Source of the DNA: Snowella sp.
Lineage (GTDB): Bacteria > Cyanobacteriota > Cyanobacteriia > Cyanobacteriales > Microcystaceae
Assembly (NCBI GenBank): GCA_003249095.1
Contig: QBMS01000050.1
Location: 19,353-65,828 of the forward strand
DNA length: 46,476 bases
Direction of reading: 5' to 3'
The position numbers were made by a program, and so were the translations under genes. The notes beneath the pieces were generated by a model, which saw only the letters and a list, made by a program, of their open reading frames with translations, had not been told where the DNA came from and ran no database searches. Positions 18,315 through 26,440 of this stretch are shown piece after piece. How positions within the stretch are numbered: the first letter of the stretch is position 1; each line of letters starts with the position of its first letter.

Positions 18315-18614
18315 CTATTTTTGAGCATACTGCTGGGTTTGTTCCCCTTGGTTTTGGGATTGATTACTATTTTGAGACTCCTGAGATTGCTGTTGAACCT
18401 GTTCTCCTTGATTTTGGTCTTTTTGGAAAGGCCAGCTTATTTGAGCATATTGAACCGCGTCGGATTGATTAAATCCTTGAGTTGTTTGGGAATATTGGTT
18501 AGATTGTTGTTCCGTTCCTTGGGTAGAAACTTCACCTGCATTTACGGGCATAATTACCAGCGTTAAAACCGCAAAAAATACAACCGCTAACGTTAAAAAA
18601 GTCTTACGAATCAT
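18315..18614 (-). CDS. Gln/Asn-rich secreted small protein, ends at an in-frame TAG
   Basis: The 99-aa product begins with a clear signal peptide (IRKTFLTLAVVFFAVLTLV, cleavage near VNA-GE). A low-complexity mature part of Gln, Asn, Ser and Glu follows, with loose repeats such as SNQSQNQGEQ. No known domain is visible. The frame stops at a TAG at 18315-18317, but the same frame stays open downstream for 44 more Gln/Asn-rich codons to a TAA at 18180. This suggests the ancestral protein was about 144 aa and that a CAG codon mutated to TAG. It is monocistronic and convergent with the permease gene. Confidence 0.65.
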   Translation of the reverse strand: MIRKTFLTLAVVFFAVLTLVIMPVNAGEVSTQGTEQQSNQYSQTTQGFNQSDAVQYAQISWPFQKDQNQGEQVQQQSQESQNSNQSQNQGEQTQQYAQK

Positions 18615-18789
18615 TAAAAATTCTCCTGTATGAATGGGATTTGTAGCGCGTTCCTTCAGGTAAAATTATTGTCCTTACTTCCGTCTCTTGCGAACTACTT
18701 TCTATTGTGTGAAGAGATGAACGATTTCTTCTATCTGTTCTTACAATCCCATTTTAAATCCCTATTTACTTCACCCATTTGGGTGACTT

Positions 18790-20217: not shown

Positions 20218-20294
20218 AATTTTTGATCCTAATAGACTATGATAATTGATATATGTTAACCACAATCTTGGCGATCGCGCTGAGTATCTTTTCT

Positions 20295-20504
20295 ATGGTA
20301 GACCAAATCAATCTCGAAACCCGTCTAACTAATTTAGAAAAAATGGTTTGTGAGCTTCAAGCACAGGTCAATAAAAAAGAGAACACAGAAAATTGGCTAC
20401 AGAATCTTGTTGGTTCAATTTCTGACGAATCCGCATTTCTGGAAGCTTTGGAATATGGTCGAGTGTTTCGCCAATCGGATCGCCCTTTAGATAAACTTGA
20501 ATAA
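20295..20504 (+). CDS. Antitoxin of a VapBC-like pair
   Basis: The 69-aa protein has an N-terminal coiled coil (LETRLTNLEKMVCELQAQV), then a short C-terminal part (GSISDESAFLEALEYGRVFR) of the kind that wraps PIN toxins. It is only three bases upstream of a PIN-domain gene, the normal antitoxin-toxin layout. No recognised DNA-binding fold is visible. The ATG at 20295 is favoured; a start at 20253 would add a hydrophobic stretch unlike antitoxins. Confidence 0.7.
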   Translation: MVDQINLETRLTNLEKMVCELQAQVNKKENTENWLQNLVGSISDESAFLEALEYGRVFRQSDRPLDKLE

Positions 20505-20507
20505 TAC

Positions 20508-20945
20508 ATGACTAAATATCTATTGGATACTGATCATATCAGTTTTTTACAGCGTCGTTCAGGTTCAGAATTTCAAAAATTAACCCGACGAATGGCTAAG
20601 TATTCGATTAATGACTTTGCCTTGAGTGTCATTAGTTTACACGAACAAGTTGTCGGAGCCAATAGCTTTATCAATCGTTCTCAAACTAATATAGAACTAG
20701 CGCGCGGTTATCAATTATTACAAGAAATTTTAATAAGTTTCTCTAAATCCTTAATCTTACCTTTTGATACTAAAGCAATAATCCAATTCAATGATCTACG
20801 AACCCAAAAAGTTCGAGTTGCAACAATGGATTTGAGAATTGCCGCGATCGCGTTGTCTAATAATCTAATTTTATTAACCAGAAATAATCGTGATTTTAGT
20901 AAAATTCCAGCGTTAATAATAGAAGATTGGACAGTGAATTCTTAA
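20508..20945 (+). CDS. PIN-domain toxin (VapC family)
   Basis: The 145-aa protein is a PIN-domain ribonuclease: Asp7 in LLDTDHISF, Glu46 in SLHEQVVGA, Asp108 in VATMDLRIAAIAL and Asp129 in TRNNRDF form the acidic Mg2+ site. VapC toxins cut tRNA or rRNA when the antitoxin is degraded. All catalytic residues are present, so it is probably active. It is coupled to the upstream antitoxin and its stop overlaps the stop of the convergent Uma2 gene by four bases. Confidence 0.88.
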   Translation: MTKYLLDTDHISFLQRRSGSEFQKLTRRMAKYSINDFALSVISLHEQVVGANSFINRSQTNIELARGYQLLQEILISFSKSLILPFDTKAIIQFNDLRTQKVRVATMDLRIAAIALSNNLILLTRNNRDFSKIPALIIEDWTVNS

Positions 20946-23255: not shown

Positions 23256-23506
23256 GAAGATATAAGGTAAATAAGAGAATATTAAGGAAATTAGAAAAAC
23301 AGTTTTTATATTTAGTTCTTGATATTCCTATAGTATAGTCACTCTAATTTATGATGGAAACTTGCTTTACGATTCCCCAGTCCCTGCGCAATTAGCGATC
23401 GCGGCTTCAAAATATTTTCATGACTATTTATAATTAATTTCATTAACCTATTGCCATCAAACTCCTGACTTTTGAAAATTTTATTGAAAATTATTCTCAA
23501 AAACTA

Positions 23507-23535
23507 TTGACATTAATTATCAATAGCTCTATGCT
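23507..23535 (+). promoter_or_regulatory. Sigma-70 promoter overlapped by a Fur box
   Basis: TTGACA at 23507-23512 and TATGCT at 23530-23535 are spaced by exactly 17 bases. TGACATTAATTATCA at 23508-23522 matches 12 of 14 fixed positions of the 7-1-7 Fur consensus TGATAATnATTATCA and overlaps the -35 box. A wider palindrome CTATTGA/TCAATAG (23504-23526) surrounds it. Fur with iron would block this promoter. Confidence 0.75.
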
Positions 23536-23541
23536 AAAAAA

Positions 23542-23614
23542 ATACGGTGTTCTACTCTCAAGGGTTAATTGAGGCGATCACCTTCTAGGGAAGTTCATGA
23601 TCGCCCACTTTTTT
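23542..23614 (+). ncRNA. Candidate Fur-regulated small RNA (IsaR1-like)
   Basis: A predicted transcript of about 70 nt starts six to seven bases after the TATGCT box and ends in the terminator at 23573-23614. It contains a first hairpin (CTCAA/TTGAG around GGGTTAA) directly followed by the terminator stem. No ORF of useful size lies inside. Size, promoter logic and iron context match IsaR1, the iron-stress-activated RNA of cyanobacteria, which is about 68 nt and Fur-controlled. I did not align it to known IsaR1 sequences, so the name is a hypothesis. It could alternatively be an attenuated leader of the gene at 23922. Confidence 0.6.
23573..23614 (+). terminator. Strong terminator of the candidate small RNA
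   Basis: GGCGATCA (23573-23580) pairs perfectly with TGATCGCC (23598-23605); an inner CTTC/GAAG can extend the stem. A run of six T follows after three bases (23609-23614). Confidence 0.8.
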
Positions 23615-23843
23615 GATCGTTTCTAAAAAGTGACTAACGAAGGAATCGTTCTTAGAGATTTTTCCAATTAAGTGGTGATAAGTCTCATATTTTGGAGTAT
23701 CTAGCAAAGAAGACTTCTGTTTTTTTCGTTAAATATGGAGTCTCAGCCTGGGCAAATGCGTCTTATCCGAGCCAGCCCTTGAGAAAGAAACGAGTCCATT
23801 GTTTCATGTTTCCCTTAAGTCAGTTTTATTTTTTATTAGTTTA

Positions 23844-23871
23844 TTGATAATAATTATGAATAAGCTACGCT
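23844..23871 (+). promoter_or_regulatory. Promoter with Fur box before the alpha/beta-hydrolase-like gene
   Basis: TTGATA at 23844-23849 and TACGCT at 23866-23871 are 16 bases apart. TGATAATAATTATGA at 23845-23859 matches 13 of 14 fixed positions of the Fur 7-1-7 consensus and covers the -35 box. The gene start is 50 bases farther on. Confidence 0.65.
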
Positions 23872-23921
23872 AGAAAATAAATTTAATCCATCATTCAATC
23901 AAACACAACCCAAGATTATCT

Positions 23922-24677
23922 ATGCCTACTATTCCTGATGTCCTTTGGTTAAATGTCAGTCCTGCCTTAAAACGCTTTAATTCTCGTCTAGCCGTCAGAT
24001 TTTCTCAAAAAACAAGGATAGGGCAGTGGGAATATTCCCAAACCCTAGATGAGCCTAATTCTTTCACAATAGCGTTAGCTCTTCTTGATCATTACTTACA
24101 ATCCTGTGATCATCCGATTCATCTGATCGGTCATGGAGCCAGTGGATTGTTAGGGCTACTCTACGCTCGTCAACATCCAGAAAATGTTAAATCTCTGACC
24201 TTACTTTCGGTGGGAGTCGATCCTTCAATTGACTGGCAAACCTATTATTATGAGCAAATTTATCACTTAAAATGTTGTCGCTCAATGTTAATGACTCAAA
24301 TTGCCTATGATCTGCTGAATTGTCGTTCTTACCATCATATTCAAGCAATGGTTAAGATTCTAGAGCAGGATTTACTGACATCTCTGTCCCTTCATACTCT
24401 CCTTAAACAGGTCTCTATTCCTCGTGAAGGAGTGACTGTTCCCCTCTTTATCGGTTGTGGTGGGAATGATCCTGTTATTAGCCCAAATCTTTTTTATGGT
24501 TGGCAAAATTGGTTAAAAGAAGGCGATCGTCATTGGTTATGTCCTCAAGGCAAACATTTTTTTCACCATGACTATCCTGATTTGTTGATGGAACAGATTG
24601 AAGATTTCTGGGTTTCATTGTCAGTACCGACAAACTATACCGCCCTGACGATGCTTTCTCATGCGCGCTTAAGCTAA
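23922..24677 (+). CDS. Alpha/beta-hydrolase-fold protein with altered nucleophile elbow
   Basis: The 251-aa protein has the alpha/beta-hydrolase layout: HPIHLIGHGASGLLGLLYA at 64-82, ARQHPENVKSLTLLSVGV, an acid loop GGNDPVISP, and a late His segment QGKHFFHHDYPD. The nucleophile elbow, normally GHSxG, reads GHGAS: Gly72 replaces the serine and Ser74 sits two residues later. It may be inactive as an esterase or use a shifted serine. A similar hydrolase-fold protein (IsiC) is encoded with isiA and isiB in some cyanobacteria, and the Fur box here fits an iron-stress role, but identity with IsiC is unproven. Confidence 0.75.
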   Translation: MPTIPDVLWLNVSPALKRFNSRLAVRFSQKTRIGQWEYSQTLDEPNSFTIALALLDHYLQSCDHPIHLIGHGASGLLGLLYARQHPENVKSLTLLSVGVDPSIDWQTYYYEQIYHLKCCRSMLMTQIAYDLLNCRSYHHIQAMVKILEQDLLTSLSLHTLLKQVSIPREGVTVPLFIGCGGNDPVISPNLFYGWQNWLKEGDRHWLCPQGKHFFHHDYPDLLMEQIEDFWVSLSVPTNYTALTMLSHARLS

Positions 24678-24727: not shown

Positions 24728-24771
24728 TTGCTCAACTATCCCCAGCTAAAGTAGAATGATAATCATTTTTA
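24728..24771 (+). promoter_or_regulatory. Promoter and Fur box of the second porin
   Basis: TTGCTC (24728-24733) and TAGAAT (24752-24757), 18 bases apart, can serve as -35 and -10. TGATAATCATTTTTA at 24757-24771 matches 12 of 14 fixed positions of the Fur consensus, and its core AATGATAATCATT is a perfect palindrome. The box overlaps the expected transcription start, so iron-bound Fur should repress. Confidence 0.7.
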
Positions 24772-24796: not shown

Positions 24797-26440
24797 ATGA
24801 TTAACCGCTCTTTGCTGGGATTTTCCGCGCTATTTGCCCTGGCTGGTATTATGCTTGTGATTCCTCAATCGGCTCAAGCTTCTCCCCATCTTCATGAGAG
24901 AAAACTACACCCGCGATCGCTAGATGGCATGATTAATAGTCCCAAAAATCAGGAGGATACTTTATCTCAAATTACCAATGTTTCTGAACTGCGGGATATT
25001 CAACCCACTGATTGGGCCTATGAAGCATTAAAGAGCTTGGTAGAACGTTATGGTTGTATCGTCGGTTATCCCGACAGAACCTTTAGGGGCGATCGCGCTC
25101 TGAGTCGTTGGGAATTTGCGGCGGGCTTAAATGCTTGCCTGAATACAATGGAGCGATTATTACAGGAAAATGTAACTGTTTTAAGAACCGATTTAGACAA
25201 AATTAAGCGACTAACAGAAGAATTTAGGCAAGAATTAACAAGTTTGGGCGTTCGGGTAGATAACTTGGAACAAAGAACCGCCTTTTTGGAAGATCATGTT
25301 TTTTCTACAACCACTAAATTGGAAGGGGAGGTTGTTTTAGGATTAGCAGGAATCGCCGCAGGAGAAAAAAATGGAGGAGAAGCGGTTTCTCGCAATACCG
25401 TTTTAGGACATCGGACTCGTTTAAGCCTCAATACAAGCTTTACAGGAGAAGATAATCTTTATATTCGTTTAGCAACGGGAAATATGCCCACCTTTGAGGA
25501 AGAAAGCGGAACTTTTCAATCGACCCTTGGATTTGCCCAGCCCGACGACAATCAAGTGTTTATGGAAACCGTTCATTACGTTTTTCCCTTAGCCAGCAAT
25601 GTACAGGCTTGGATTTTAGGGATAGGGGGAACCCATGACGACTTTCTGACGACTTTTAATTTCCTAGATGGAGACGGAGCCTCTGGTGCATTGACTTCTT
25701 TTGGGACTCGCAACCCGATTTACTATACTTCAGAGGGATCTGGAGTCGGTTTTCAGGGAACTTTGGGAGATTTTCAGTGGGGTTTAGGGTATCTCGCCCT
25801 GGAAGGCAATAATCCTAGTCAGGGTCAGGGATTATTCAATGGTGCCTATGGTGCGATCGCTCAATTTGGTTACAATCCCAGTGAAAATTTTGGGGTCGCG
25901 TTAACCTATATCAATGGTTATAACAATCTCGATACCGAAACCGGTAGTTTAAAATCCAATTTCCAGTTTTTCGCTGAAGATAGCTTAGGACAAGCCGTAA
26001 AAACCGCTAATAATTCCTATGGTTTGGAATTTTCTTGGAAAGTGACCGATGGTTTTGTTCTCGGTGGTTGGGGAGGTTTTACTAAATCTTCTACCCTGAA
26101 TCCCATTGCCCTGAGTGAAGAAGAAATCTTACCTCGCGGAACCCTAGATATTTGGAATTGGGCAGTCACTTTGGCCTTTCCCGATGCTTTCAAAGAAGGA
26201 AATTTAGCGGGAATTATCGTCGGAATGCAGCCCTGGGTCGCCAATTCTACCGTCGCGATCGCCGATGGGTTTAGTGCCAAAGATAGTAATACCTCCATGC
26301 ACTTGGAAGCATTTTATCAGTATGCGATCAACAATAATATTTCCATTACCCCAGGAATCTTAGTGATTACCTCCCCCAACAACGATGACCGCAATTCCCC
26401 TTTAGTCATGGGTACTATTCGCACAACCTTTAGTTTTTAA
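24797..26440 (+). CDS. SLH-domain OprB-type porin, Fur-box regulated
   Basis: The 547-aa protein has a signal peptide (SLLGFSALFALAGIMLVIP, cleavage near AQA-SP). An SLH domain follows at about 65-125 (DIQPTDWAYEALKSLVERYG, GYPDRTFRGDRALSRWEFA), then a coiled coil to about 165, then an outer-membrane beta-barrel ending in TIRTTFSF. It belongs to the cyanobacterial iron-uptake porin family, like the gene at 12707-14563, with which it shares most of the SLH and coiled-coil sequence; the barrels differ. The Fur box 26-40 bases before the ATG supports induction by iron shortage and a role in iron entry across the outer membrane. Confidence 0.93.
   Translation: MINRSLLGFSALFALAGIMLVIPQSAQASPHLHERKLHPRSLDGMINSPKNQEDTLSQITNVSELRDIQPTDWAYEALKSLVERYGCIVGYPDRTFRGDRALSRWEFAAGLNACLNTMERLLQENVTVLRTDLDKIKRLTEEFRQELTSLGVRVDNLEQRTAFLEDHVFSTTTKLEGEVVLGLAGIAAGEKNGGEAVSRNTVLGHRTRLSLNTSFTGEDNLYIRLATGNMPTFEEESGTFQSTLGFAQPDDNQVFMETVHYVFPLASNVQAWILGIGGTHDDFLTTFNFLDGDGASGALTSFGTRNPIYYTSEGSGVGFQGTLGDFQWGLGYLALEGNNPSQGQGLFNGAYGAIAQFGYNPSENFGVALTYINGYNNLDTETGSLKSNFQFFAEDSLGQAVKTANNSYGLEFSWKVTDGFVLGGWGGFTKSSTLNPIALSEEEILPRGTLDIWNWAVTLAFPDAFKEGNLAGIIVGMQPWVANSTVAIADGFSAKDSNTSMHLEAFYQYAINNNISITPGILVITSPNNDDRNSPLVMGTIRTTFSF

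Follow-up and report, generated by a model that had tools for sequence, protein, structure and literature searches.

A stretch of cyanobacterial DNA of 46,476 nucleotides from Snowella sp., here called the window, contains the gene of a predicted small RNA of about 70 nt. In all likelihood this RNA is an orthologue of IsaR1, which would be repressed by Fur and act by pairing with the mRNAs of iron proteins. IsaR1 sets the response of photosynthesis to iron shortage. The promoter, two Fur-like boxes and the terminator have the order seen in relatives. The seed, however, differs, and the complementarity to the usual target genes has weakened. On balance, the regulon appears to have shrunk or to have been rewired in this lineage, a reading based on four genes of a single draft genome.

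Fur binding, induction by iron shortage and the mode of repression are taken by analogy from the IsaR1 family, and the RNA would accordingly be expected to work as follows. Iron-loaded Fur would occupy the two boxes and block the promoter. When iron becomes scarce, Fur would leave, and the RNA of about 70 nt would be made, its own terminator setting the end. The unstructured 5' stretch of the RNA would cover the ribosome-binding regions of iron-protein mRNAs and thereby repress them. Both a single seed base and the post-seed core have changed in this lineage, with sodB still pairing and the sites in sufB, petF and hemA no longer detectable.

Promoter, Fur-like boxes and terminator

The features of the locus are compiled in Table 1. 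The initial annotation had read the promoter as TTGACA-N17-TATGCT, which direct reading and script-checked coordinates confirmed. It fits the consensus at 10 of 12 positions and ties for the best among 16 promoter-like sites in a scan of 3.5 kb (22-25.5 kb). Its TTGACA is invariant across 19 aligned relatives.

Table 1. Coordinates of the predicted sRNA, its control elements and nearby Fur-like boxes in the window
Feature	Position	Strand	Remarks
Upstream Fur-like box TGAAAATTATTCTCA	23485-23499	+	2 mismatches to TGATAATNATTATCA; similar box at the same place in many relatives
Promoter	23507-23535	+	-35 TTGACA 23507-23512, spacer 17 nt, -10 TATGCT 23530-23535
Fur-like box TGACATTAATTATCA, overlapping the -35	23508-23522	+	2 mismatches to TGATAATNATTATCA; similar in many relatives
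Predicted sRNA of about 70 nt, probable IsaR1 orthologue	23545-23614	+	start placed at 23543-23546; from homology; stop in each frame
5' pairing stretch GTGTTCT-A-CTCTCAAGG	23547-23563	+	A at 23554; from comparison with relatives
Divergent linker	23564-23572	+	GGATCGGCAGG-type core of relatives absent; from comparison with relatives
Intrinsic terminator	23573-23614	+	8-bp stem 23573-23580/23598-23605, T-run 23609-23614
Fur-like box	23845-23859	+	1 mismatch; just before alpha/beta-hydrolase ORF 23922-24677
Fur-like box	24757-24771		2 mismatches; just before SLH-OprB porin ORF 24797-26440

The 7-1-7 motif of Fur is TGATAATNATTATCA. Each of the two promoter boxes agrees with it at 12 of the 14 specified bases. 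The one on the -35 element had been noted in the initial annotation; the second, upstream one had been missed. The intergenic region 23256-23921 contains three plus-strand Fur-like sites with at most 2 mismatches, compared with 0.016 expected from 1000 shuffles. Across 52 promoters (TTGACA copies only, window included, some places counted twice; without L021, L045, L068 and L070-L072), the mean mismatches to the 7-1-7 motif are 3.9 for the upstream and 4.0 for the -35 box, versus 6.2 and 6.4 once the letters are shuffled; a match of the -35 box is favoured because it overlaps the very TTGACA by which the promoters were chosen. The window shows 2 and 2 in this comparison; L065, a copy from the genus of Synechocystis, has no clear 7-1-7 box (8 and 6). 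The FurA consensus of Anabaena was rejected as a marker of promoter boxes: the upstream box reaches 14/19 at 23487-23505, but 14 sites in the window reach at least 14, and this score alone is weak. In sequence, the candidate boxes at 23485 and 23508 agree with a Fur-type operator at the promoter, as expected for IsaR1.

The RNA had been described as some 70 nt long, without an ORF and ending in a perfect 8-bp stem with a T-run. All of this held: 70 nt are predicted, with stops in all three frames, and the stem is built from GGCGATCA and TGATCGCC, with a loop of 17 bases and a gap of 3 bases before the six T. Size, stem and T-run agree with a free-standing RNA of about 68 nt that has an intrinsic terminator. 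An automated terminator scan at 22-25.5 kb reported none, versus 2.7 in shuffles, because the scan requires a loop of 3-8 bases and a T-run at most 2 bases from the stem, and the loop and gap found here fall outside these limits. Two stem-loops had also been claimed. The terminator hairpin, which encloses a small inner hairpin, is firm, whereas the centroid fold shows only weak structure in the 5' part. Taken as a whole, the RNA 23545-23614 has a fold no better than that of shuffled sequences (z -0.66). In the family, both sides of the terminator stem vary at 7 of 7 modelled pairs, with 36 cells of two-sided change versus 13.2 in shuffles, in an alignment of 45 distinct rows that was fitted to the model and has about 5 doubtful rows. 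Since relatives have the promoter, the 5' stretch and the terminator as well, the candidate is more than a chance arrangement.

Homologues and identity of the RNA

A blast search with 23460-23640 gave matches in 23 of 98 genomes (own genome among them) at E 0.001. Several span the boxes, the promoter and the 5' RNA; many are short and of the chance type. Common to the good ones are the promoter with its two boxes, the 5' stretch (A)GTGTTCTCCTCTC, a core resembling GGATCGGCAGG, and a terminator. Two models were built from relatives with the window excluded: R1, a covariance model built on 9 relatives and limited to the RNA, and R2, comprising boxes, promoter and RNA (19 relatives). R1 finds the window RNA at 23545-23619 with 25.3 bits (E 2e-5), R2 the locus with 50.8 bits (E 4.7e-15). 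The IsaR1-like reading of the initial annotation, which had been derived from size and regulation, is now supported by homology. The Rfam search suggested along with it was of no help. Against Rfam 15 the window RNA gave no relevant hit, whether the gathering or a permissive threshold was applied, and no family was returned for six IsaR1 homologue loci; as clear homologues also remain without a match, the test could not work. Annotation based on Rfam would likewise miss copies of IsaR1.

In its own genome, the window copy is the sole match reported by R2 (E 6.1e-13, threshold E 0.001); R1 missed it there and gave six weak matches, the best with 16.2 bits. Within the order, R2 matches 310 of 388 genomes at E ≤ 0.001, in 127 of 149 genera, Synechocystis included, as counted from a score list that was individually inspected in part and in a search that scores filtered candidates only. 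In the family, R1 matched 42 of the 50 genomes, of which 40 were read as real, and R2 matches 41, window included. L070 (G015), L071 (G021) and L072 (the second match in G018) were rejected; they have no promoter and look like chance. L045 (G038) and L068 (G031), whose RNA matches the family well (68.8 and 49.1 bits), were retained as copies. Their upstream regions, which resemble each other and not the usual ones, are devoid of the TTGACA promoter and of Fur boxes. At L073 (G029), two IsaR1 copies lie in tandem with starts 212 bases apart, one having the seed CTCCTTTC for CTCCTCTC. With the filters used, a convincing IsaR1 was not reported in 9 of the 50 family genomes (G003, G006, G013, G015, G017, G020, G021, G026 and G034); two of these, G006 and G015, are reduced (1.4-1.5 Mb). 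Such an sRNA may also be absent from Trichodesmium, as one report suggests (PMC12090762).

The link to the name IsaR1 is provided by the genus of Synechocystis. All five genomes of this genus that were searched, including Synechocystis salina LEGE 00031 with L065, have one copy each (L062-L066). These copies take the form AGTGTTCTCTTCTCAAGGATTCAG.., and one that was measured has 64 nt from AGTGTT to the last T. In three genomes of the genus, the 5' part pairs with the starts of sodB, sufB and petF at z -2.3 to -4.2, and more weakly with those of hemA (z -1.2 to -2.0). According to published work, IsaR1 of Synechocystis PCC 6803 has 68 nt (PMC6202907), is strongly induced by iron starvation (PMC5386190, PMC3516471) and has targets that include Fed1, PetJ, SufBCDS, SodB, PetABDC1, AcnB, HemA and ChlN (PMC8136909). 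From its size, its induction and sodB, the RNA called NC-181 in Synechocystis sp. PCC 6803 is presumably IsaR1 as well. We conclude that the cyanobacterial RNA family is most likely IsaR1, judged by genus, size, regulation and target fit.

The window RNA resembles IsaR1 of PCC 6803 in size, Fur-type promoter and terminator hairpin and in being the single copy found. It shares the 5' GTGTTCT..CTCAAGG stretch with the Synechocystis-genus copies, and this stretch fits sodB. E. coli RyhB and Pseudomonas PrrF1/2, Fur-repressed sRNAs acting on iron-protein genes, would be alike in mode of action; PMC3516471 names them as counterparts, with sodB as a shared target.

Seed, target pairing and the regulon

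The window copy reads GTGTTCTaCTCTC (more fully GTGTTCTACTCTCAAGG), where relatives mostly have GTGTTCTCCTCTC or GTGTTCTCTTCTC. The difference is at position 23554, which is A in the window and C in the promoter-bearing relatives compared. Past this base the relatives vary themselves: CTCCTCTC, CTCTTCTC and, in a few, CTCCTCTT, CTCCTCTA or CTCCTTTC. The window seed is thus TTCTACTC instead of TTCTCTTC or TTCTCCTC. Of the 17 bases of GTGTTCTCCTCTCAAGG, 16 are kept in the 5' stretch; exact letters vary among members, which makes this form the usual but not the defining one. After CAAGG the core is unrelated to that of the relatives, and the GGATTCAGTAGG/GGATCGGCAGG core is missing. A pattern search for the window seed form behind an exact TTGACA found it in 2 of 388 genomes, the window's own and G260, where the matched letters show no visible -10 and look like chance. 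Among promoter-bearing copies, the R1 score of the window is near the lowest, with L021 still lower (23.3 bits). In a tree of AcnB, the own genome sits in an unresolved fork with a branch of 0.12 (median 0.069), like G010 and G011; general fast evolution is therefore no obvious cause of the divergence.

Pairing was calculated for 15 genomes, the 18-nt 5' stretch of each being scored against its own targets from -40 to +12 and expressed as z against shuffles. Start regions of sodB, acnB, sufB, petF, hemA and petC were used, with start codons chosen by pattern, no more than two copies of petF from each genome (the own genome has five petF family matches) and duplex energies that do not include accessibility. 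The mean was taken over sodB, sufB, petF and hemA. Two genes were left out of it: acnB, which is mixed (-3.0 to +1.1 in other genomes, -0.3 in the own one), and petC, which belongs to a published target operon but shows a site at its start in none of the 15 genomes (-0.5 to +1.8). The four-gene mean is -0.61 in the own genome, the weakest of the 15, versus -2.39 to -4.04 in the other 14, where that of G043 is averaged over just petF and hemA, as sodB had no match there and sufB is truncated. Of the four genes, sodB alone stands out in the own genome (z -2.4), the others reaching -0.3 (sufB), -0.2 (petF) and +0.5 (hemA). An earlier version of the test (19 nt, -50 to +15) gave -2.6 for sodB, -1.6 for acnB, +0.6 for sufB and -0.2 for petF. 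Weak single genes also occur elsewhere: petF in G046 (-0.1), hemA in G081 (+0.4) and G059 (-0.6), sodB in G005 (-0.8), and sufB in G012 (+0.4), where the start was picked too far upstream.

In 11 of 13 other genomes the 50 bases before sufB include the site GAGAACA, the exceptions being G012, which has it just after the start picked too far upstream, and G081, which has a variant site. GGAGAAC precedes hemA in 12 of 14. In the own genome neither is present at the respective gene. Swapping the seeds, in a run of eight genomes, suggests that both partners have changed. The canonical seed of G009 yields only -0.83 on the own-genome targets; the window seed yields -1.33 to -2.58 on the targets of seven other genomes, where the G009 seed yields -2.39 to -3.88, and -0.47 on its own targets with fresh shuffles. 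The seed and the core being changed and the sites in sufB, petF and hemA being undetectable, the regulon is therefore probably smaller than in relatives, or different. An operator and a promoter that are kept beside a faded seed and faded target sites amount to a natural experiment on the loss or rewiring of an sRNA regulon.

Of course, the full conserved regulon of an IsaR1 orthologue might persist, the seed change being tolerated or offset by pairing beyond a simple duplex score. With one base of difference in 17 function may well continue, sodB pairs well, and promoter, both boxes and terminator are intact. We nevertheless regard this as possible but rather doubtful: the mean pairing of the own genome is the weakest of all, GAGAACA and GGAGAAC are absent, and extending the stretch to 30 nt, as done for 8 of the 15 genomes, did not rescue it (sufB +0.7, petF -0.5, hemA +0.3).

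Within the preferred reading of a shrunk or rewired regulon, the specific case of rewiring would be that Fur control was kept while seed and target sites changed together, so that the RNA now addresses largely different mRNAs, with sodB as a remnant. We consider this an unlikely, if tenable, version. Compensatory sites of the GAGTAG type were sought by eye at the starts of sodB, acnB, sufB, petF, hemA and petC in the own genome, and none was convincing. If true, rewiring would mean that an iron-starvation sRNA has, in nature, exchanged its regulon with its promoter retained; a literature search on seed-region rewiring of iron sRNAs in cyanobacteria found nothing related.

A decaying IsaR1, on its way to a pseudogene and, expressed or not, devoid of regulation, is improbable. 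The divergent core, the changed seed, the faded target sites and the low R1 score would fit. Free drift would, however, not be expected to spare two well-formed Fur-like boxes together with a strong promoter and the perfect stem of the terminator, and their retention argues against simple decay, as does the pairing with sodB.

That the RNA instead serves the gene at 23922 as a leader or attenuator is very improbable. This alpha/beta-hydrolase ORF lies on the same strand, 307 bases after the T-run, but the terminator intervenes, the Fur-like box at 23845 is nearer to the hydrolase gene, and none of 60 homologue loci (some places twice, flanks of about 1.5-2 kb) was found to have the hydrolase next to the RNA. 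An unrelated Fur-controlled sRNA or a chance pairing of promoter and terminator, for which the missing GGATCGGCAGG core, the lack of an Rfam match and the unremarkable fold of the RNA alone could be invoked, is hardly credible in view of the E-value of 4.7e-15 to a profile built without the window, of boxes, promoter, GTGTTCT..CTCTCAAGG and terminator that follow one another as they do in relatives, and of the own genome, in which no better candidate was reported.

Neighbourhood and further features of the window

The additional Fur-like boxes listed in Table 1 suggest that the sRNA may lie in an iron-controlled gene cluster. When five neighbouring window genes were compared with the same 60 homologue loci, duplicates included, the only neighbour recovered was an OprB porin, which adjoins IsaR1 in a single genome, L002 and L036 being one and the same place there. 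Slr1908, one of the SLH/OprB proteins of Synechocystis, appears in the iron literature.

SufB of the own genome (L160, contig C46 of G000) contains a long in-frame insert that starts with CHPAGEQVLTRHGW and ends with VHNC; it looks like an intein. At 20253-20945 (+), a small ORF, for which no Pfam match was found, is followed by a PIN-domain ORF, and the two look like a toxin-antitoxin pair of the VapBC type. Finally, a glutamine riboswitch (Rfam RF01739, 55.2 bits) at 18645-18725 (-) lies directly before the ORF 18315-18614 (-), which encodes 99 amino acids and whose start is signal-like and whose tail is very rich in Gln.
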